This document shows positions 2,189-38,900 of a DNA stretch of 64,000 bases, one piece after another. Source of the stretch: Aureococcus anophagefferens (Eukaryota; Sar; Pelagophyceae; Pelagomonadales; Pelagomonadaceae); the NCBI RefSeq assembly GCF_000186865.1, contig NW_008705567.1, positions 1,806,379 through 1,870,378 on the forward strand, written 5' to 3'. Made by a program: the position numbers and the translations under genes. Numbering within the stretch: position 1 is the stretch's first letter; every line of letters begins with the position of its first letter. The notes under the pieces were generated by a model. The model did no database searches and had not been told where the DNA came from. It worked only from the letters and a program-made list of their open reading frames with translations.

Positions 2189-3537
2189 ATGGGCGCGCTT
2201 AAGACGGCCGGGAAGCTCGTCGGGCTGTACGTGCTGGCCTATTTAGTCCAGGTCTGCTTCCTGATCAAGGACCATGTGCCTTTCACGCTGCAGCAGCGCC
2301 TGGCCCAGGCCAAGTGGTGGCTCCTGAACCCGCGCAGCCTCATGACGATGACGGAGGACGAGGTCATGGAGAGCTACCTGAGCAACACGGACCCGCCCCA
2401 GATCGAGATCCCCGTCATCGAGGGCACCTGGGAGGAGATCAAGGACGAGGTCATGAGCCTGGGCAAGGACTGGCCGCGCGCGCCCGCGTCCGCCGGCGGG
2501 CCTCGCTCGCGTCGCGCGGCCGGAGACGACGCACAGGACGCCATCGCTTCGTTCCTAGGCTCGTGCTCGTGAAGAACTTCAGCCACGGCTACCTCGACCA
2601 GTACGCGGACATGGAGGCCTTCATCGCGGCCACGGAGAACACGAAGCACAGCTTCACGACGGTGCACCTCGGCGCGAACGTGGGCCTGGGCAAGACGAGC
2701 GAGATGGTGGGCCTCCACGACGCCGTGCGCCGCATGGCCGGCGGCGAGCAGCTCTACGGCGGCTTCATCCTCGACCTGCTGGCCCAGCAGCCCAAGCTCA
2801 TGGCGGGCGTCGCCGCGACGCTCAAGCGGCTCGCGGACATCCCCGCGCTCGTGCGCTACAGCGACGAGGTCCACGACGCGAACCACCACGCCTTCGTCTA
2901 CCACGGCACGTGGCACTGGGCCATGCTCCACAACGCGCCCGTGCCCGACGCGTTCCTCCAGGTCGCGAACCGGAAGAAGTGGTACTTCACGGTGCCGGAC
3001 TACATCCCGCACATGCGCCCCGTGTGCCTGGGCATCGCGGGCTGCCGCTTCATGATGGACCCCCGCGACCAGAGCCGCATCCCCTTCCGCGAGGTCATCT
3101 CGGAGCCGGGCGACATGCTCCTCTTCCCGCCCTTCTGGCCCCACGGCGTCGCGAACCTCGAGGAGGAGTTCGGCTGGGGCGTCGGCGTGCGGCCGGGCGG
3201 CGGCAAGGACGCGTTCAAGACGTTCCTCTGGCCCCTCAAGGCGCAGAAGTCGGGCTACTGGGCCACCGTGAACTGGTTCCTCCGCTTCCTCACGCTCAAC
3301 ACCAAGGCGGACAACGGCAAGACCGACATCGACAGCCTCAAACAGAACGTCACGACGAACCTCGTCCTCAACACGCCCCACCTCGAGGCCCTCTCGCGGA
3401 ACATCACGGAGAAGATCGACCTCAACCACCCGCTGCGCACGGGCGGCCACAGCGCGCCCTACGCGGGGCCCCCGGCCATGCTCACGAAGACGGAGGCGGC
3501 CATGCTCGCGGGCGCGGGCGCGAAGGCCGAGCTCTAG
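2189..3537 (+). CDS. Membrane-anchored cupin/JmjC-like protein (HxA variant)
   Basis: Proposed exons 2189-2475 and 2559-3537 (421 aa), joined across an 83-bp GC-AG intron that restores frame between KDWP and LVLVKNFSHGY. Residues about 7-25 form an N-terminal membrane segment. The core resembles the cupin_8/JmjC-like fold of Fe(II)/2-oxoglutarate enzymes. LHNAP near residue 219 sits where the family has LHxDP, QVANRKKW matches the strand after it, and EPGDMLLFPPFWPH near residue 289 carries the second histidine. The usual acidic iron ligand is alanine. A relative at 11121-12227 shares the same order and the same change. The reaction and substrate are unknown. Confidence 0.7.
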
Positions 3538-26404: not shown

Positions 26405-28096
26405 TCAGCCGCCGGCGGGCGCGGGCGGCGGCGCGGCGTTGACCGCGGCGAGGAACGCGTCGACGGCGGCCGCGGAGCGCGCGCCGAGCTCGGCGAGGGC
26501 GTCGAGGGCGCCGGCGGCGCCGGCGACGCCGTCGAGGCGCAGCGCGGCGACCGCGGCCTTGAGGAGGCGCGTCGCCGCGGCGCCGACGGCCTTGGCGACG
26601 TCGCGCGGCCGCGCGCCGTCGAGGTCGTCGGCGGCGGCGTCGAGGCGCGCGGCGACGTCGTCGACGGCGGCGTCGAGGGGCGGCCCGCCGCCGGGGCGGC
26701 GGCGCGCGGGGCCCGGGCGCGCGGGGCCGGCCGCGCGGCCGCGGCGGAGGAAGCGCGCGAGGGACTTGGGCGACGCGGCCGCGTCGGGCGCGACTTGGTG
26801 GGCGAAGAAGCGGCGCTGGGGCGTCGCGGGCGTCGCGGGGCTGCCCACGGAGGGCAGCCGCGGCGAGTTCGGCGGCGCGGCGGGCGCGACGGCGACGGGC
26901 GCGACCGCGCGGGGCCGCGCGGCGTCGGCGACGGCCGCGCAGGCCGACGCGAGGCTCGCGGCCTCGGCGTCGTCGACGACGGCCCGCGACGCCGCGAGCC
27001 AGGGCAGCGCGCGGAGGTCCGCGAGCGTCGCGCGGCGCCGCGGGTCGACGACGAGCGCCGAGAGCGCGAACGCGGCCGCGTCGGGTGACGCGCTCGCCTG
27101 GCGCAGCGTCGCCGGCAGGGCGTTCACGGCGCGCTGGAGGCGCGCGCGGAAGACGTCCGCGTCGCGGTCGCTGCCGTAGCACGGCAGCCACTTGTAGGAG
27201 AACCACGCGCGGCCGAGCAGGAGCTCCGCGGCGACGCAGCCGACGCTCCAGACGTCGGCGCGGAAGGGGTCGTAGCCGCCCGCGCGCAGCGCCATCTCCG
27301 GCGGGTAGAAGCCGCGGGACCCGCAGAACGCACTCGCCGTCGCGCCGCGGTCGTAGAACCGCGCGAGCCCCAGGTCCGTGACCTTGACGGTCCCCACAAA
27401 GTCCGCGGACGCGTCCTCGCCGACGAGCACGTTCTCGGCCTTGACGTCGTGGTGGACGACGCCCATGCGCTCCAGCGCGCCGAGCGCGACCGCGACCTGC
27501 GAGAGCACGGACCGCGACGCCTTTTCCGAGAGCGCGGCCGCGCCCTCGCCGCCGAGGCGCGTCACGAGGGCGTACAGATCCTCGCCGCCGTGCTCGAGGA
27601 CGAGGTAGAGCTTCGCCGGCGTCTGGATGGCCTCGACGAGCCGCGCGACGCCCGCGTGGCGGCACGCGCGGCAGGCGCGGACCTCGTTCGCGAGCGCCAA
27701 AAGGGCCTTGTGGCGCGACGCGCGGGCCTTGTCGACGACCTTGACGGCGTAGCGCTCCTGCGAGCCGTCGGCGACGCCGAGGCGCACGACGGCCGACGAC
27801 CCGGCGCCGACGGTCGGGCCGAGCGCGTAGCGGCCGACGCGGTCCTCGGCCTCCGCGACGGCGGCGTCGAGGGGCGGCAGCGCCGCGAGGTCCCCCGGCG
27901 CGCCGGCGAGGCGGCCCCAGAGGAGGGCCACGCTCTCCTCCTGGAGCGTCGAGTACTTGTTCTTCAGCACGCGCACGTCGGCGATGCGCTTCTGGAGCTC
28001 GTCCTCGAGGTAGTCGTGGCGCTCCACGAGCTCGTTGTAGGCCGCCGCGAGCTCGATGGGGTCGCTGTACGCGGCCATGAGCGCCACGCGCCGCAT
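26405..28096 (-). CDS. Serine/threonine protein kinase with N-terminal coiled coil
   Basis: 563 aa from the Met at 28096 (another Met at 28078). Residues about 10-60 form a coiled coil (AAAYNELVERHDYLEDELQKRIADVRVLKNKY). The kinase domain is about 90-385: glycine loop GPTVGAGSSAVVRLG, Lys in YAVKVVDK, catalytic loop VHHDVKAENVLV (His in place of the usual Arg of HRD), DLG in place of DFG, GSRGFYPPEM in place of APE, and ADVWSVGCVAAELLLG. All catalytic Lys/Asp/Asn are kept, so it should be active. The lack of HRD Arg argues against control by activation-loop phosphorylation. An Ala/Arg-rich tail follows with two helical segments. The kinase group is not identified. Confidence 0.85.
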   Translation of the reverse strand: MRRVALMAAYSDPIELAAAYNELVERHDYLEDELQKRIADVRVLKNKYSTLQEESVALLWGRLAGAPGDLAALPPLDAAVAEAEDRVGRYALGPTVGAGSSAVVRLGVADGSQERYAVKVVDKARASRHKALLALANEVRACRACRHAGVARLVEAIQTPAKLYLVLEHGGEDLYALVTRLGGEGAAALSEKASRSVLSQVAVALGALERMGVVHHDVKAENVLVGEDASADFVGTVKVTDLGLARFYDRGATASAFCGSRGFYPPEMALRAGGYDPFRADVWSVGCVAAELLLGRAWFSYKWLPCYGSDRDADVFRARLQRAVNALPATLRQASASPDAAAFALSALVVDPRRRATLADLRALPWLAASRAVVDDAEAASLASACAAVADAARPRAVAPVAVAPAAPPNSPRLPSVGSPATPATPQRRFFAHQVAPDAAASPKSLARFLRRGRAAGPARPGPARRRPGGGPPLDAAVDDVAARLDAAADDLDGARPRDVAKAVGAAATRLLKAAVAALRLDGVAGAAGALDALAELGARSAAAVDAFLAAVNAAPPPAPAGG

Positions 28097-28330
28097 GTCC
28101 CGGGGGGGTTCGGGGGGGGCGCGGGGGGCGCGGGGGCTGCGGAAGATGCGGCTCGAGCCTTCGCGCGGCTTGCGCAAGGGCAGCGTTGAGACGAGGGCAC
28201 CCGGAAGTTTCAGGTGCTGTTCAACTTTGGCGCCGCGCGGAGCTGCGGCCTGTCGGGGCCCGACCTGGTGCAGCACCTGCGAACCTCGACGCATTCGGCG
28301 CGGCTCCGGCCCGCCTGAACCTTGGTCGAC

Positions 28331-29584
28331 ATGCTGGAGCCGCGCAGGATGAAGCCGAAAAACGACGCAAAGTGGCAGAAGCTGCGGGACAAGGCCGTGC
28401 GAGAAAAATGCGGCGCGGCTAACCGAGTCGACGCCGTCAAGCTCATCGACGCCCACATGGCGGCGGCCGGCGGCCTGCGCAAGGAGAACCGGAAGATTTT
28501 GAATGGCTGCCACTTCCTCGACGACGGCCTCGTCATCGGCGACCTCCAGCCCAACGGCACGTCCGACGGCACGTTCGAGCTCGGCGCGTCGCGGTCGGGG
28601 CTCTTCTTCTCGACCGAGTTGCCGTCGTGGTTCGCGGGCACGCTCCAGCTCGACGCGCCGCCGGCCCTCGCGGACCGCATCGACGCGGAGCTGCGCGCCA
28701 TGCGCGCGGGCGGCGTCGACGCGGACGGGAAGAACTGGAAGCCCTGGGGCCACCACGAGCAGGACAAGGGCAAGGGCGCGCGGCGGCCCACGGCGGCCGA
28801 GGGGGGCGTGCCGACGAAGCGCGCGTACCTGCCGCCCAACGAGCTGCGCTTCGCGGTCATCGACGCCGCGCGGCGCGACGAGGCCGTGCGGGGCCTCGAG
28901 CTGACGCGCATGGACAAGACGTGGGGCGGCATCACGCGCGACGTCGTCGCCGCGGTCCGCAGGGCCATGGGCGACGACGCGCTGCCCCTGCTGACCAAGA
29001 AGCCGCGGGACTGGCGCCGGCGCGAGGTCGGCGCCACGGGCGTGATCAAGTTCGACGAGGGCGACGTCGGCATCAACGTCAACCACATGAACGCGAGCGG
29101 CTACTACCCGTTCCACACGGACGACCGCGGCCGACTCAACGAGCTGCCCGACATCGACGGCAGCGGCGACAACATCGTGACCTACAGCGAGACCGCGTCG
29201 CTCATCCTCATCGCGCCGCGCGAAAAGGGCTACGGCAAGGGCTGCATCGGCCTCCACGTGCGGCCGCGCCAGCTCTGGGGCATGCGCGTGCTCGCGATCG
29301 CGGACGAGGCAAAGGACGAGGGCATCCACGTCGACTGGAACGTCCGCGAGGACGCCGTCCACGCGGTGCTCAACGCGACGAACGAGCCCCGCTTCTCCGT
29401 CAACTTCCGCCTCGGCGGCTTCGACAAGATCTTCCACGACGACGCGAAACCGGCGGACGTGCCGAAGGCGCTCGCCTTCGCCGGCGCCGGCAAGCGCATG
29501 CGCGACGCCGCCGCCGCCGACGACGACGCGCCGAAGGTGCCCCGGAAGGTCGCGAAGGAGCTCGAGATCGCCATGTACACCTAG
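28331..29584 (+). CDS. AlkB-like 2-oxoglutarate/Fe(II) dioxygenase candidate
   Basis: 417 aa from the ATG at 28331, intronless. The second half carries the ligand order of AlkB-type dioxygenases: NHMNASGYYPFHTDDRGRL (HxD iron motif near residue 262), ETASLILIAPREKGYG, then DAVHAVLNATNEPRFSVNFRLGGF (second His and the RxxxxxR that binds 2-oxoglutarate and substrate). The N-terminal third is basic and without named domain (KWQKLRDKAVREKCGAANR). A KRMRDAAAADDDAPKVPRKVAKE tail looks like a nuclear signal. AlkB relatives repair or demethylate nucleic acid or protein; the substrate here is unknown. The call rests on motif order, not overall similarity. Confidence 0.55.
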   Translation: MLEPRRMKPKNDAKWQKLRDKAVREKCGAANRVDAVKLIDAHMAAAGGLRKENRKILNGCHFLDDGLVIGDLQPNGTSDGTFELGASRSGLFFSTELPSWFAGTLQLDAPPALADRIDAELRAMRAGGVDADGKNWKPWGHHEQDKGKGARRPTAAEGGVPTKRAYLPPNELRFAVIDAARRDEAVRGLELTRMDKTWGGITRDVVAAVRRAMGDDALPLLTKKPRDWRRREVGATGVIKFDEGDVGINVNHMNASGYYPFHTDDRGRLNELPDIDGSGDNIVTYSETASLILIAPREKGYGKGCIGLHVRPRQLWGMRVLAIADEAKDEGIHVDWNVREDAVHAVLNATNEPRFSVNFRLGGFDKIFHDDAKPADVPKALAFAGAGKRMRDAAAADDDAPKVPRKVAKELEIAMYT

Positions 29585-29625
29585 TAAGTCCTTGCTAGTC
29601 CTGCTCTGGATTTGACCAGCACATT

Positions 29626-31938
29626 TTAGAGGGGCGCGTCGACGAGCGCGCGCGCCGCGGCGCGGAGGGGCTCCCGGTCGTACTTGGCGATCCGACGATC
29701 GTAAGTCAAGAGACCGTCGCACTCCGTCTCCGTATCGACGCTCTGCGTGAGGATCGCGGACGACATGCCCGCGCGGCGGAAGCCCTTGTGGCCCGCGCGC
29801 GTATGATTCCGCGGCGAGAAGGAAAGGAGCGTCCCGTAGCGCGTGCAGCTGTCCGCAAAGTCCCAGGCCACGCAGGCGTCCAGCGCGTCGCAGGCTTGCC
29901 CGCAGCCGTCCAGCGACGTGCCTTCGAGCTCGTCGATCGCCTCGCCGTCGACGGCGTAGAACCCGTCGAGCGGCGCCAAAACGGTCGCGGTGCCGTTGAT
30001 CACGCCCGCGATGTTGCCCAAGAGGTCCGCCGCGGCGGCCGTCATCGCCTCGCGGCCCGCGGCCCCGCTGAAGACCTCGTAGCCCGCCCAGTGCGCCGTC
30101 GCGAGGCAGCCGGAGACGTTGGAGCCGTTGGCCCAGCCCGGGCTCTGGTCGGGCTCCCAGTCCTCGACCACCGACACGAAACCGCCGATCTCGCCGACGA
30201 GCGACGGCCGGCGCGCGCTCGCGTTCCACGGCGCCATCTTCAGGTCCGCGGGCTTTCGCGCGTAGCGGTGCTCGTCCTTGACGTCTCCAAACCCGGCGTC
30301 GTCGCAGCCGGAGCAGATGTCCAAGAGCCGGCCGTCGCGCGCGGCGCGCGCGACCGCGCTGACTCTCGCATACCATGCCAGATCCGGTTCGCGCTCGTGG
30401 TCGTACTTCGTGGCGCACGCTTCGTTGAAGGCGTCCCACTGGACGATGGACGGGTGGCCGCGCCGCGTCGCGACGAGTCGCGCGAATTCGCGGAGGTAGA
30501 TGTCCTGCATCGTCGCGTAGTTCGACCGGTTGCCGTAGCCGCCGCACTGCGGCGCGGGCATGTCCTGCCAGACCATCAGCCCGAGCGCGTCCGCGTGGGA
30601 GTACCAGCGCCGCGACTCGACCTTGAGGTGGTGCCGCTGCGCGTTGAAGCCCAGGTCCCTCTGGGCCGCGACGTCGAAGGCGATCGCGGCGTCGCTCGGC
30701 GGGGTGTAGACGCCGTCGGGCCAGAAGCCCTGGTCGAGCACGCCGAACTGGAAGACGGGCGCGCCGTTGAGCGACGGCCGCGGCACGCCGCGCGCGTCGA
30801 GCGCGACGGAGATGGTCCGGATGCCGAAATAGGTCCGGAACTCGTCGAGGACCGCGCCTTCCGAGTCGCGCACGCGGACCGTCGCGCGGTAGAGCTCCGG
30901 CGCTCCGGGCCGCCAGAGCCGCGCGGGCGCGCGCACGCGGAGCACGGGAGGCGCGTCCGCGAGGCGCCAGGAGATTCCCGCGTCGCCGTCGACGGCCACC
31001 TCGACGGCGTCCGCGCCGGCGGAAACGAGCGCGGCCGCGTCGACAACATCGAGCGCGACGCCGTCGAGGGCGGCCGTCGGCGTCGCGACGAAGCCGTCGG
31101 GCGGCACCGTCGCCGCGGACGCGAGGCCCTCGAGCCAGACGGCCTGCCAGATGCCCGAGGTGCACGCGTAGCCGACGCCGAACGCGTGCCCGAGCTTGCC
31201 GCAGTTCTGCTTGCCGTGCGGCTGCGGGCCCCGCTCGTTCGGATCGTAGACCCCGACGACGAGCTCGTGCTCGTCGCGCGCGCCGACGAGGTCCGTGACG
31301 TCGAACGAGAAGGCGTCGTAGCCGCCCCGGTGCGACCCGAGGAAGACGCCGTCGACGTAGACCCGGGCCTCCCAGTCGACGGCCTCGAAGTGGAGCGCGA
31401 CCTACCACGCACGTCGGTGACGACCTTTTCGTCATTTTCTCGGTCAAAAGCTCTCGAAAATCGTCACGGCCACAGGACGTCCTGGGACGCCGAGCGCGAC
31501 GCGCGGCGCGTCGATCGTCGCCGAGAAGGTCCGCCGGTACCACGCGGCGTCGCGGGCCGTCGTGTTCCGCACGCCCGAGAGCGCCGACTCGATGGGGAAC
31601 GGCACGAGGATCGTCTCCGGCAGGTCGCCGCCGCCGAAGGGCGGCGACGAGAGGTCCGCGGCGAAGCGGTCGAGCTCCCAGACGCCGTCGAGCGAGCACC
31701 AGGCCGCGCGCCGCATGAGCGGGTTCGGATGGTCGTCGACGCCCGGCGTCGCCGTCACGTTCAGGCCCCAGTCCGTGAGGAGCTGCGTGCGATTGCCGTA
31801 GGGCGGGATCGACGGCGCGAGCCGCGGTCCACGCCAGGCGTGGGGAGACTTCGAGCATTCCGCCGCGCCGGCGAGGCGCAGCGCGAGGAAGCAGGCGAGC
31901 GTGCGCCGCGGGTCTGCGGCCGATGCGAGGGCCATCAT
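29626..31938 (-). CDS. Secreted glycoside hydrolase family 2 enzyme
   Basis: Exons 31938-31501 and 31401-29626 (737 aa), separated by a GT-AG introner intron. A signal peptide (ACFLALRLAGAAEC) is followed by the GH2 sugar-binding domain (AWYRRTFSATIDAPR, then after splicing VALHFEAVDWEARVYVDGVFLGSHRGGYDAFSFDVTDLV). Next come an immunoglobulin-like domain and a TIM barrel (DLGFNAQRHHLK, LGLMVWQDMPAPQ, and acid/base Glu in VQWDAFNEA near residue 471; EIGGF near 550 is the candidate nucleophile). This is the beta-galactosidase/beta-mannosidase/glucuronidase group. After the barrel lies a Cys-rich PAN-like piece (LDGCGQACDALDACVAWDF). Likely acts in the secretory pathway or outside the cell on plant- or algal-type glycans. 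Confidence 0.85.
31394..31500 (-). mobile_element. Introner, short family, copy 2 (element 31402-31492)
   Basis: In the sense of the gene, GTCGCGCT occurs just before and just after a 91-bp element that starts CGGCGTCCC and ends GCGTGGTAG. The intron is from the GT of the first duplicate (31500) to the AG of the element (31402). Inverted GTGACGA / TCGTCAC blocks lie inside. Removal restores the conserved GH2 strand RVALHFEAVDW, confirming the boundaries. Confidence 0.9.
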
Positions 31939-32157
31939 TCCTTCGTATGCGCCGGCGGGCTGGCGCGTCTATTGGGCTAGGGAGAGCCGGGCCATCGTCG
32001 CCTTCGGGCTGCACCTCGAGGCAAACGATGGCATCTTGAACCGCTCTCCGCGAGCGCATGGCCAAGGTCAAGGCGTAGTCGAGCCGCCCGCAGCGCCTGA
32101 CACCGCGCCGCAGCGCCCGACACCGCGAGGCGCGTTCGCAGCGCTCGGCGCGCCGCG

Positions 32158-35100: not shown

Positions 35101-35284
35101 CGACGCCTGCGAGAACAAGGCGAAGCGCGACTACCACGCGGACCGCGCCCTCAAGCTCAACGACGACCTCAACCGGAGCCAGCAGGACCTCATGTTCTTC
35201 CGGCCCATCTGGATCCTCCCGGCCGAGTGGGGCGAGTACGAGCACGACGACCAGACGAGGCGCGACGCGGAGCCGCGCGTCTGA
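32158..35284 (+). CDS. ANAPC5: Anaphase-promoting complex subunit 5
   Basis: Exons 32158-33888 and 34100-35284 (971 aa), split by a 211-bp GC-AG introner intron. The diagnostic APC5 region is FLRYLSCVHHRELLGALDALHRYFDYARA followed by YAALNLAAVHVRFGHHGLAAIAIDEAVRVAQQRHDHACVTFALSWL, the subunit's TPR core. Further helical repeats fill the second exon (AEYLLKFEWALHRGANKRAEALASALL, HAEAAFALGRVNVYLGSVAKARSLI). APC5 is a scaffold of the cell-cycle ubiquitin ligase APC/C in the nucleus. A Pro/Ala insertion (about residues 190-225) is species-specific. It diverges from the GH2 gene with a 219-bp shared promoter region. Confidence 0.9.
33889..34107 (+). mobile_element. Introner, long family, copy 2 (element 33897-34099)
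   Basis: GCGACGGC is duplicated at 33889-33896 and 34100-34107 around a 203-bp element with ends CTGTGTGGAAATCAA and, reversed, CTGTGTGCAAATCAA. The intron runs from GC of the first duplicate to AG of the element. It is the same family as 20559-20732 but in the other orientation, and has about 30 extra bases, mostly near the right end. Splicing joins CTC to GCG and keeps ALLATARR intact. Confidence 0.92.
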
Positions 35285-35317
35285 TAAGTACGGTCCTCTG
35301 ACCCCGCTCCGCGGCGT
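35228..35317 (+). repeat. Direct repeat, left copy, spanning the APC5 stop
   Basis: The last 18 codons of APC5 and about 35 bases beyond (GGGGCGAGTACG ... CCGCTCCGCGGCGT) recur at 37743-37823 with a 9-bp deletion and a few changes. Both copies keep the reading to TGATAA. Confidence 0.85.
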
Positions 35318-35877
35318 TTTGCGACAGGGAGCCGTCGCCACGGCGTGATTTGCCTTGACGCGTCTCTAAACGTAGGGGGCCCGGGAGGAACCGCGGGGGA
35401 CGGGAGGCTCAGAGGGGTCTCACAGGCGCCGGAGGCGCCAGTGGACGGCGGCGTGAATTTGCCGCTGGCGATCGTTTCTACGTTTCTCCACAGAAATCAG
35501 CACTCAGACACGGCATCATCGTCTCGTGCGCGCCGGCGCGGGCTTTGTGCGCGCTCTCGCGCCGTTTGGGGGGTTGTCACGCGTCGCCCGCCCGCGACAG
35601 AGTGCATCGCCCGACGCGCGCCTCAGAGGGGGACCCCGAAGGCGTTGAGAACGGCGAAGGGGCCGAAGAAACGTCGAGCTCGCGAAACTCGACCGCAAAA
35701 GCCCCCTGGCGCGCGCACGCCCTCGCGTACCCGCCAAGACGCGGCTTACACATCTGCAGTGGCGTGCGCGCGCGTGGGAGCGCCCCCAAAGGCGACGCGC
35801 GCGCGCGCTCGGTCGACCGGCTCGAGCCGCTTCGCCGAGATCGCGGCGCAGGTCCAGTACGCCCCGCCCTCGACATC
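35285..35877. other. 593-bp interval without a supported gene
   Basis: Between the APC5 stop and the LRR gene start. The frame of the LRR gene's first exon stays open upstream to 35545, but without an ATG and with low-complexity Arg/Pro-rich translation. It is more likely leader, or an exon I cannot define. The first 33 bases belong to the direct repeat also found at 37743-37823. No RNA gene or repeat array is seen. Confidence 0.5.
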
Positions 35878-37638
35878 ATGCTGCGCCGCATCAAGAAGTT
35901 CACGGTCTACTCCTCGGCGATCGTTGTTGGCCAGGCCTCTCGCGCCCTCGACAACGCGCCCTTCGCCGGGCAAGATGAGTCCGAGGACGCCAAGAACCTG
36001 CTCCGTCGACTCTCCGACGGAGTCTCCGTATGCGACGATAAAGAAGAACCCTACCACGAACTCCGGACCAACCAGTTCTGGAAGTTCTTTGACTATTGCA
36101 TCGACCTGGATGAGACGGAGCTGCGAGTTCCCCCCGCGTCCCCGACGCGCGGCGCGGCGCGCGACCGACCCTCGGCGTCGCAGGCACCTCGAGTACAACG
36201 AGTTCGACGGCGGCCCGAGCGATGGGATCCCGCACGAGATCGGCGAGCTCACGGCGCTGACGTACCTGCGAGTTCCCGCCGCGTCCCCAACCCCCGGCGC
36301 GGCGCGCGACCGCCCCTCGGCGTCGTAGGTCGCTCCAAAACAACAAGATCGACGGCACGCTCCCCGTCGAGATCGGCCAGCTCACGAAGCTGCAGTACCT
36401 GCGAGTTCCCCCCGCGTCCCCGACGCCCGGCGCGCCGCGCGACCGCCCCTCGGCGTCGCAGGAACCTCTACTCCAGCTACATCACCGGTACGATCCCGAC
36501 CGAGATCGGCCTGCTCTCGGCGCTGACGTACCTGCGAGTTCCCCCCGCGTCCCCGACGCCCGGCGCGGCGCGCGAGCGCCCCCTCGTAGGAACTTCTACA
36601 ACAAGCAGATCACCGGCCCGATCCCGACCGAGATCGGCCAGCTCACGGCGCTGAAGTACCTGCGAGTTCCCCCCGCGTCCCCGACGCCCGGCGCGGCGCG
36701 CGAACCGCCCCTCGGCGCCGCAGGCGGCTCTGGGAGTGCGGCATCACCGGCCCGATCCCGACCGAGATCGGCCAGCTCACGGCGCTGACGGAGCTGCGAG
36801 TTCCCCCCGCGTCCCCGACCCCCGGCGAGGCGCGCGACCGCCCCTCGGCGTCGCAGGTACCTCACCGACAACAAGATCAACGGCCCGATCCCGACCGAGA
36901 TCGGTCAGCTCACGAAGCTGGGGTTGCTGCGAGTTCCCCCCGCGTCCCCGACGCCCGGCGCGGCGCGCGACCGTCCCTCGGCGTCGTAGGTGGCTCGAAA
37001 ACAACAAGATCGACGGCCCGATCCCGACCGAGATCGGCCAGCTCACGGCGCTGACGACCCTGCGAGTTCCCCCCGCGTCCCCGACGCCCGGCGCGCCGCG
37101 CGACCGCCCCTCGGCGTCGCAGGTACCTCACCAACACCAAGATCACCGGCACGCTCCCCGTCGAGTTCGGCCAGCTCACGAAGCTGACGTACCTGCGAGT
37201 TCCCCCCGCGTCCCCGACGCCCGGCGCGCCGCGCGACCGTCCCTCGGCGTCGCAGGTACCTCAACGACAACGAGATCAACGGCACGCTCCCCGTCGAGTT
37301 CGGACAGCTCACGAACCTGAAGTCCCTGCGAGTTCCCCCCGCGCCCCCGACGCCCGGCGCGCCGCGCGACCGCGCCTCGGCGTCACAGGTGGCTCTACCA
37401 CAACCACATCACCGGCACGTTCCCTCTCGCCCTCTGCGACGTCGAGAATTGCATCGCCGAGGATAATTCTCTCATCGTCAGGACCTCGCCGTGCGACGAC
37501 TACAACAACTTCGTCGCGCCGCGCGTCAGGCCGGTTTGCTGCGATATCATCGGAGAAAACGGGGAGACTTGCGCCGCCGCGGCCGCGGGCCTCGCCGCGC
37601 TCTCCGCGGCCCTCGCCGGCGTCGTCATGCTCGCCTAG
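35878..37638 (+). CDS. Leucine-rich-repeat surface protein built of single-repeat exons
   Basis: Eleven exons: 35878-36122, 36184-36267, 36329-36400, 36462-36533, 36590-36661, 36724-36795, 36857-36928, 36990-37061, 37123-37194, 37256-37327, 37389-37638 (384 aa). The first is a leader with a weak signal-like start (MLRRIKKFTVYSSAIVV) and a conserved-looking acidic region. Each middle exon encodes one plant-type LRR of 24 residues (28 in the first), such as WLENNKIDGPIPTEIGQL. The last gives a capping segment with cysteines and ends in a hydrophobic Ala-rich tail (AGLAALSAALAGVVMLA) like a GPI-anchor signal. All ten introns are GC-AG and of one phase, so repeats can be added or lost without frame change. 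Probably a cell-surface recognition or adhesion protein. Confidence 0.85.
36123..37388 (+). repeat. Tandem array of about 133-bp exon-intron units
   Basis: Ten introns of 56-62 bp (eight are exactly 61) alternate with 72-bp exons. The introns are almost the same sequence: each starts GCGAGTTCC, continues CGCGTCCCCGACGCCCGGCG with few changes, and ends CGTCGCAG or CGTCGTAG. The exons differ more than the introns, mainly at the LRR surface positions. The array arose by repeated duplication of an exon plus its intron. Confidence 0.92.
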
Positions 37639-37742
37639 GCGCCCACGAAGCACGCCCTGAGCCGCGATCCGCGCCCCGCCCGCCGGACTTGATCGTAAGC
37701 CCCGCCGGACTTGATCGTCGAGGCGCACGTCGGGCCCATAGA

Positions 37743-37823
37743 GGGGCGAGTACGACCAGACGAGGCGCGACGCGGAGCCACGCGTCTGATAATTAGGAGG
37801 CTCTTACCCCCGCTCCGCGGCGT
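37743..37823 (+). repeat. Direct repeat, right copy (fragment of APC5 3' end)
   Basis: A second copy of the APC5 tail (ACCAGACGAGGCGCGACGCG, then TCTGATAA and CCGCTCCGCGGCGT) that is not part of any gene on this strand. Just before it, 37716-37740 repeats the 3' tail of the gene at 37804-38900. The pair of copies brackets the LRR gene. Confidence 0.85.
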
Positions 37824-38900
37824 CCGCCAGGGCGTCGTCGAGGCGCATGTCGGGCCGATAGTACTGGGCCGCGAGGTCCTTCTCGAAGGCCTCGGGCTCG
37901 TCGCCGAGCGCGACGGCGCCCCTGACGCGGTCCCGCGCGCGGTCCGGAACGCGCCGCTGTAGGGGTCGTCGAGATCCGCCAGGATCTGCAGGATGGCGTA
38001 GAAGGACGTCGTCATGAAGACGAAGAGCGCCCGCACGGGCGTCTCCGCGAGGAAGCCCGCGAGCGTCGCGGACCGCGACCCCGAGATCGTGTCCGCGCGG
38101 AGCAGGAAGCAGTAGAGCAGGCTGGCCATGAGGCAGGCCATCGTCAGGTAGAGCCCCGGCGGGAACGCGGACTCGAGCACGCTCCGCCGCTCCTGGCGCG
38201 CGGCGTTGAGCCGCACGAGCAGCGTCTCCGTCTTGTCGATGGTGATGGCGGCGGAGCCGGGCGAGAAGCCGAAGTTGGGGCCGCTGGTGATCGCGTCGCC
38301 GCACTCCGCGAGGACGTCGAGCAGCGCCGTCACGCGCGACGACTGCGCCGACCAGTGCGCGCGCCAGTACGAAGTGCCGCTGCCCGCGCCGATCTCCTTG
38401 GACACGACGATGGACCGCCGCATCTCGAAGATGTACGTCGAGAGGATGGCCATGGATCGTCGGAGCCGGCCCTTGTCCCACCGGAAGAGCTTCGTGTGCT
38501 GCTGCGCGATGGTCTCGAGCAGCGACGCCTCGTCGCAGAGGCTCTTGCGCAGCTCCTGCTGCCGCTGCCGCAGGACGCTGACGGCCGTCGAGATCAGCGT
38601 GCCGAGCGTGATGGACAGGGCGCCGATGACGACGCTCTCGAGGCCGCTGAAGGCCGAGAAGGCGGCTTCCGTTTGCGCGCTGAGCAAGATGGCCCTCGAT
38701 TCCGCGAGCCGCGGCAGGAAGCACCAGCTCGACACGACGACGACGACGAGCGAGATGGGCTGCCGGATCACGGCGTTTAGGAGCCGCTCCGCGCGATCCC
38801 TCCGCCTACTCCCGTAAAGCAGCTCGAAGCGGTTCCAGTCTTCCTCGTGGCCTTCGTCCGCGGCATCATTCGACCGCCGCCGAAGAAACGCGTCATCCAT
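37804..38900 (-). CDS. Membrane protein, bestrophin-like (DUF4239 type), with a frame break
   Basis: Start at 38900 (MDDAFLRRRSND). Hydrophobic segments occur near the N-terminus (PISLVVVVVSSWCFLPRL; GLESVVIGALSITLGTLIS) and after residue 230 (GLYLTMACLMASLLYCFLL; VRALFVFMTTSFYAILQILADL). LADLDDPYSGAF near the end matches the DLDRPFSGxF signature of DUF4239 proteins. Just after it the sensible frame switches by one base (about 37925-37955) to GDEPEAFEKDLAAQYYRPD and the stop at 37804. No intron fits in the space, so this is a one-base deletion in the gene or an assembly error. If real, the uncorrected frame runs on to 37635 with an unrelated tail. Confidence 0.6.

Follow-up and report, generated by a model that had tools for sequence, protein, structure and literature searches.

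A leucine-rich repeat gene with one repeat per exon

The window, a 64,000-nucleotide stretch of the Aureococcus anophagefferens genome (G000:C7:1806379-1870378), contains at positions 35878-37638 of the forward strand an 11-exon gene that, after in-silico splicing, reads as a single open frame of 384 amino acids and a stop codon. Its exons measure 245, 84, eight times 72 (exons 3-10) and 250 bp, each 72-bp exon encoding one 24-residue leucine-rich repeat (LRR). The ten introns begin at 36123, 36268, 36401, 36534, 36662, 36796, 36929, 37062, 37195 and 37328 and measure, in that order, 61, 61, 61, 56, 62, 61, 61, 61, 61 and 61 bp. Eight consecutive 72-bp exons of one repeat each and introns of a single phase had been described in the initial annotation, and both observations hold: ten of ten introns are in phase 2, splitting a codon after its second base (CT|G). 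At the sequence level the gene forms a tandem array of a 133-bp unit (9.0 copies, 84% match), and all ten exact occurrences of the 12-mer CTGCGAGTTCCC in the window fall within this gene. The features are as follows, with exon boundaries from in-silico splicing and with the repeats that are visible in protein models of other strains (P0008, P0012 and P0076) marked.

35878..36122, + strand: exon 1, with the start codon, an N-terminus resembling a signal sequence by eye, and the pre-LRR region
36123..36183, + strand: intron 1, 61 bp, GC-AG, phase 2
36184..36267, + strand: exon 2, 84 bp, longer first LRR
36268..36328, + strand: intron 2, 61 bp
36329..36400, + strand: exon 3, 72-bp LRR
36401..36461, + strand: intron 3, 61 bp, same sequence as intron 8 and as the copy at G000:C28:108822
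36462..36533, + strand: exon 4, 72-bp LRR, visible in P0008 and P0012
36534..36589, + strand: intron 4, 56 bp, shortened 3' part like that of the solo copy in a CBS gene (G000:C7:2074890)
36590..36661, + strand: exon 5, 72-bp LRR, visible in P0012 and P0076
36662..36723, + strand: intron 5, 62 bp
36724..36795, + strand: exon 6, 72-bp LRR, visible in P0008 and P0076
36796..36856, + strand: intron 6, 61 bp
36857..36928, + strand: exon 7, 72-bp LRR, CAG|GTACC at its start forming a false GT donor
36929..36989, + strand: intron 7, 61 bp
36990..37061, + strand: exon 8, 72-bp LRR
37062..37122, + strand: intron 8, 61 bp, query of the genome-wide BLAST search
37123..37194, + strand: exon 9, 72-bp LRR, visible in P0008, P0012 and P0076
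37195..37255, + strand: intron 9, 61 bp
37256..37327, + strand: exon 10, 72-bp LRR, visible in P0076
37328..37388, + strand: intron 10, 61 bp
37389..37638, + strand: exon 11, with the last LRR, a cap that contains cysteines, a hydrophobic C-terminal tail resembling a GPI type by eye, and the stop codon

All ten introns carry GCGAGT at the 5' end and CAG or TAG at the 3' end, and are of the GC-AG rather than the GT-AG type. The consensus of the 24-residue LRR class is LxxLxxLxLxxNxxxGxIPxxIG, and the GC-AG reading, the sole one that gives known splice dinucleotides, yields canonical repeats of this kind; excision restores the frame although intron length varies modulo 3. From these properties of the sequence, the introns are probably spliced at the GC-AG boundaries. 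No transcript of the gene was found among the matches listed.

A Pfam scan of the window protein matched nine families, all of them LRR, and placed LRR_14, LRR_1, LRR_4 and LRR_8 above the cut-off across a tandem LRR domain; the same scan found neither a ROC-COR GTPase domain nor a kinase domain. The plant LRR receptor kinases GSO1, FLS2 and ERL1 are among its best PDB sequence matches. By eye, the N-terminus resembles a signal peptide and the C-terminus a GPI-type tail. The protein is probably located at the cell surface, and it and its relatives may act in recognition.

The 3' end of the upstream gene (35178-35337) recurs just downstream of the LRR gene (37678-37840; 72% over 166 aligned bases, the core almost identical by eye), and 37835-37861 is repeated at 37715-37741 with 25 of 27 bases matching; the LRR gene may have been inserted at this locus with duplication of its flanks. 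Elsewhere in the window, tandem repeats of 11 bp and 32 bp make up two blocks about 1 kb apart (718-916 and 1789-1995), which appear by eye to be mutual reverse complements and lie in a stretch of lower GC content.

A gene family that shares one intron

Other genes with the same intron, anticipated in the initial annotation, are present in the genome. A BLAST search with intron 8 across 49.05 Mb in 86 contigs returned at least 52 matches, a lower bound, which we classed by their flanking sequence. Forty-six of them lie in at least nine LRR arrays, some truncated or degenerate, one (C28:108822, identical over 61 of 61 bases) is flanked by an LRR exon on just one side, one (C13) is placed after a family exon 1, and four, again as lower-bound BLAST counts, are copies without an LRR on either side. 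A pattern search that allowed up to 3 mismatches gave 39 matches to the 5' part of the intron and 46 to its 3' part, and its reversed-pattern control gave 0. The last 15 intron bases have exact matches at 41 places (control 0); 12 of these, together with the 3-mismatch match at C25:412089, were considered as further dispersed introns, and none proved to be an intron copy. These 13 align at best over 15-40 model positions at the 3' end (E 0.008-0.19), and 12 of them sit in a frame that is open over 351 bp. The 23-base intron core has no exact match among viral contigs, a set that may omit records from the genome of the window.

Across seven loci of the family, 27 of 31 internal exons are exactly 72 bp long, the rest measuring 69, 69, 84 and 102 bp. 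Repeat number varies between paralogues, and their tails, judged by eye, are of different kinds: some carry a transmembrane-like helix, others Ser/Thr/Pro repeats or cysteine repeats. Outside the GC-AG-intron family, seven further LRR loci matched a composite LRR query; in the three that we examined, a single open frame runs through several repeats, uninterrupted by introns. One degenerate family member (L049, G000:C21:277441-280499, minus strand) has donors decayed to GCAAAT or GCGATC and holds two LRRs in one exon, as though an intron had been lost. Among the matches listed from the open-licence PMC literature, we found no paper that describes this gene family.

Introns and synonymous sites diverge alike while amino acids change faster

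Near-identity of the ten introns of about 61 bp, and their greater conservation relative to exons, were central to the initial annotation. We measured divergence over 38 introns and the 27 exons of exactly 72 bp at the seven loci, setting aside the exons of 84, 102, 69 and 69 bp, the solo copies, the degenerate C21a array, the truncated C7b array and the truncated first intron of C4a. Introns differ by 0.079 on average, and by 0.086 in the core without the splice ends. For the exons, pS is 0.095 and pN 0.251, a pN/pS of 2.6 that is a counting estimate over non-independent pairs and not a codon-model test; bootstrap ranges are 2.0-3.6 for pN/pS and 2.5-3.9 for pN/intron. The window gene thus does have ten introns, of 56-62 bp, belonging to a family with a mean difference of 7.9%, and in raw numbers introns are more conserved than exons, but synonymous sites (9.5%) are about as conserved as introns, so the high intron identity needs no special crossover role. 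Codon-bias saturation is ruled out as the cause of the low pS: with codons drawn independently, pS is expected to be 0.36-0.42, and the counted value lies so far below this that synonymous sites must be young rather than saturated. The open reading frame at 26405-32071 was dropped as a yardstick of codon usage, as its base composition by codon position is not that of a coding frame.

Amino-acid change is unevenly distributed over the repeat. In the 27 exons, pN is 0.53 at codons 2, 4, 5, 7 and 24, which by LRR convention we take to be the exposed concave beta-strand positions, and 0.16 elsewhere. The pN/pS ratio is no higher at the concave codons (2.1, 0.527/0.249) than at the others (2.2, 0.165/0.073), since counted pS rises at the concave codons as well. 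What is concentrated on the concave face is thus the amount of amino-acid change, with no higher ratio seen there. Diversification of amino-acid-changing sites over the repeat as a whole (pN/pS 2.6) agrees with the variable exon residues of the initial annotation.

Constraint on the introns, such as splicing signals required in a GC-AG intron, or gene conversion acting on introns only, would also keep them alike, and the invariance of both intron ends in 25 copies chosen for alignment would fit such a process, as would a slight clustering of introns by gene, those within one gene being slightly more alike (p 0.046). The core, however, differs slightly more than the whole intron and comes near the synonymous value, and we regard this explanation as very unlikely. 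Special conservation of the introns is itself ruled out, synonymous sites and intron core diverging about equally. The contrast between introns and exons is best read as the mark of a repeat family that is still young and in which diversifying selection has sped up amino-acid change.

Probable past exchange between repeats and stable visible order in strains

Because the introns share one phase and each exon holds one repeat, exchange within introns preserves the reading frame, as the initial annotation had pointed out in describing the locus as a recombination machine. Exon similarity is correlated neither with gene of origin (r -0.04) nor with the similarity of neighbouring introns (r -0.15 and -0.09), and collinearity was detected in none of six paralogue pairs tested (exons, p 0.25-0.88; introns, p 0.27-1.0). 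Repeat numbers also differ between paralogues. Past exchange between LRR units is likely on these grounds, although selection erasing the history of the exons and the small number of intron differences could account in part for the non-collinearity and the missing exon-intron correlation, and although 9 of the 27 exons have their nearest relative in their own gene, compared with 63 of 351 exon pairs that fall within genes. Conversion that homogenises introns possibly contributes to their likeness as well, given the within-gene p of 0.046 and the share of exons whose nearest relative is in the same gene.

Protein models from other strains provide a view of repeat order within the species. The best matches to exon 1 are the A. 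anophagefferens proteins JL720_2075 (100%), JL722_12193 (99%) and JL720_7222 (100% over 52%), and residues 1-82 of the window protein are 100% identical to P0012 and 99% to P0008. JL720_2075, JL722_12193 and JL720_7222 represent the window gene as it occurs in other strains, and their models include translated intron sequence. The public models mis-splice the GC-AG introns, and the comparison covers the visible repeats: those of exons 4, 6 and 9 in P0008, 4, 5 and 9 in P0012, and 5, 6, 9 and 10 in P0076, along with four of six repeats in P0122, a strain model of the C14 array gene. In all four models the visible repeats keep the order of the window genome, with 20-23 of 23-24 residues matching, and the two further C14 models P0125 and P0126 (JL720 and JL722) agree by eye. 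Variation in repeat order among isolates, which had been predicted, was not seen in these repeats.

The repeats missing from the strain models can be explained by false GT-AG splicing. The sequence CAG|GTACC opens both exon 7 and exon 9, and a two-unit deletion of exons 7-8 in the strain proteins was ruled out on the reasoning that a GT-AG predictor acting at CAG|GTACC gives exactly such a join. In P0008, P0012, P0076, P0122, P0125 and P0126 alike, GC-AG introns are read as coding or mis-spliced, and other genes with GC donors may therefore be misannotated too. The C14 array gene (L010/L028) ends in a cysteine-rich tail repeat (SAASSCSGLSKKEC...), which by eye is present three times in G000, three in JL720, two in JL722 and two in JL721, so its tail repeat number differs between strains; tails of a similar kind are found at the end of other proteins, for example P0131, P0136 and P0141.

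These observations bear on whether the locus is an active generator of diversity, in which introns serve as crossover tracts that still alter repeat number or order in populations or individuals. The single phase and the near-identical introns make this mechanically possible, repeat numbers differ among paralogues whose orders are not detectably collinear, and exon shuffling has been proposed for brown-algal ROCO genes (PMC11378527). Against it, not one of 351 exon pairs is identical and the 27 exons differ pairwise at 6 or more of 72 positions, so that none of the exons examined stems from a recent duplication of a unit; the same visible repeats stand in the same order in the strain proteins; and somatically recombined ROCO loci are, according to PMC11378527, not reported. 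Ongoing exchange is accordingly unlikely. Of the recombination machine, support extends to the frame-preserving single phase with one repeat per exon, the diversified amino-acid sites, the sharing of the intron with other genes, and paralogues that differ in repeat number and are not detectably collinear, with no currently active exchange seen.

Intron copies outside LRR genes

The intron has four solo copies without a flanking LRR. At C4:2322040, excision at GCGAGT/CAG joins LGGGGE to MWGETADPSDI, and a GH20 Pfam match (residues 50-108) crosses the junction; at C7:2074890, excision at GCGAGT/TAG joins KRCH to MLVVVDKA within a CBS match (54-106). Two of the four copies, those in the GH20 and CBS genes, thus keep the boundaries of the LRR introns, and excision restores the domain. 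The copy at C18:740652 lies in a YHYH gene whose Pfam match (98-226) starts downstream of the junction, and the join read there needs a GT donor. At C4:538755, where no Pfam family was matched, all five cuts tried keep the frame open and one of them begins with GT.

The GH20-gene copy comes within 2 differences of a C12-array intron. The CBS-gene copy is nearest to window intron 4, with which it shares the 56-bp length and the shortened 3' part; the two have 9 differences, a larger distance than LRR introns usually show among themselves, and the next nearest introns stand at 18. The GH20 and CBS copies fit separate copying from different LRR introns, with a putative direction and route, whereas each of the remaining two solo copies stands further from its nearest intron, at 8 and 13 differences. 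It is conceivable, and we propose it tentatively, that the GC-AG intron of the LRR arrays is mobile and has been copied from different LRR introns into the GH20 hexosaminidase-like and CBS genes, by reverse splicing or a similar route without target-site duplication, the LRR arrays being a source of new introns.

No target-site duplication was found at the four solo copies, where the longest word shared between boundaries is 3-4 bp, a length expected by chance (the probability of at least 4 is 0.485). Terminal inverted repeats were looked for by folding three introns, and no end-to-end pairing was found (z -1.72 to 0.09); inspected by eye, the ends of most copies show no inverted likeness beyond the 4-bp GCGA...TCGC.

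If, conversely, each LRR boundary had recently gained its own mobile intron, as by introner insertion, the introns would be younger than the exons. The same intron does occur at four places without an LRR on either side, and introners are known in Aureococcus, including a short family of about 77 bp (PMC9860276). Synonymous exon sites are nevertheless about as young as the introns, from which it follows that exons and introns were mostly copied together. The solo copies are also without a target-site duplication, as opposed to the 8 bp given for that Aureococcus sp. family, the three folded introns form no end-to-end hairpin, and dispersed matches number only 4 of 52, the 13 further short-word matches not being copies. 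We consider such insertion at each boundary very unlikely.

Proposed origin of the family

Taken together, the evidence makes it probable that this is a young family of likely surface LRR genes that grew by tandem amplification of exon and intron, whose exons diversified for recognition and which underwent past unequal exchange. In this scenario, an LRR exon and its attached 61-bp GC-AG intron would have multiplied in tandem as one unit of 133 bp, with the resulting LRR genes then spreading to several contigs. Introns and synonymous sites would have drifted by about 8-10% since amplification, and amino-acid change would have proceeded faster, with its largest amount on the concave face formed by the beta-strands, so that the recognition proteins came to differ in their surfaces. 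The differing repeat numbers and orders of the paralogues would go back to earlier unequal exchange between units; in the strains examined, the visible order is stable. Unequal crossover and shuffling are the mechanism by which we infer the arrays to have grown.

The gene extends the design of one LRR per 72-bp exon from brown algae to a pelagophyte-type alga and a different LRR protein, and each 61-bp intron serves as an internal neutral yardstick next to an exon that evolves fast. Should the solo copies be real transpositions, they are events with a plausible donor through which spliceosomal intron gain without a DNA transposon, a long-standing question, can be tested. GC donors can, in addition, break the public gene models of such LRR genes.

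Comparison with known systems

Introner elements are described from Aureococcus and other algae. Those of A. anophagefferens are given as about 210 bp long, with canonical motifs, direct repeats and terminal inverted repeats (PMC9481584, PMC7789003). In a metagenome genome of Aureococcus sp., an introner family is exemplified by an element of about 77 bp (positions 3289-3365) that carries both splice sites, and the family leaves an 8-bp target-site duplication (PMC9860276), so short introners exist in the genus. Like these elements, the LRR-array intron has copies of similar sequence in unrelated genes of such an alga, although only 4 of the at least 52 matches have no LRR on either side. It differs from the A. 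anophagefferens introners of about 210 bp in its length of 56-62 bp, its GC-AG boundaries and the lack of any target-site duplication at the solo copies, and from the described introners in that most of its copies sit in tandem LRR arrays.

Lamprey VLRs likewise present a diversified LRR recognition surface, and are assembled somatically from an incomplete germline gene and separate germline cassettes; the window gene, by contrast, is complete in the germline assembly. Plant LRR receptor kinases share with the window protein the 24-residue LxxLxxLxLxxNxxxGxIPxxIG repeats, but the window protein lacks a kinase domain and its gene has one intron per repeat. The LRR exons of the luteinizing-hormone/gonadotrophin receptor are not known to form a multigene array like the window family. 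That receptor, as cited in PMC11378527, has LRR exons of similar size and phase-2 introns like the window gene, and near-identical introns are not mentioned in the passage that cites it.

The closest likeness is to the brown-algal LRR-ROCO genes, in which, according to PMC11378527, which cites Zambounis et al. 2012, each LRR exon is 72 bp long and in phase 2, exon shuffling has been inferred, and positively selected sites are reported on the concave face. Both cases thus combine one 72-bp phase-2 exon per LRR with a stramenopile alga, and the architecture of the window gene is therefore known in kind. The window protein departs from the ROCO proteins in having no ROC-COR domain, in its LxGxIP-type repeats and in the tails of its family, which by eye are hydrophobic, Ser/Thr/Pro-rich, cysteine-repeat or transmembrane, and its gene departs from theirs in its near-identical GC-AG introns of 56-62 bp. 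Relative to the brown-algal genes, both the class of protein and the intron are different, and what looks new is the intron, with its copies outside LRR genes.
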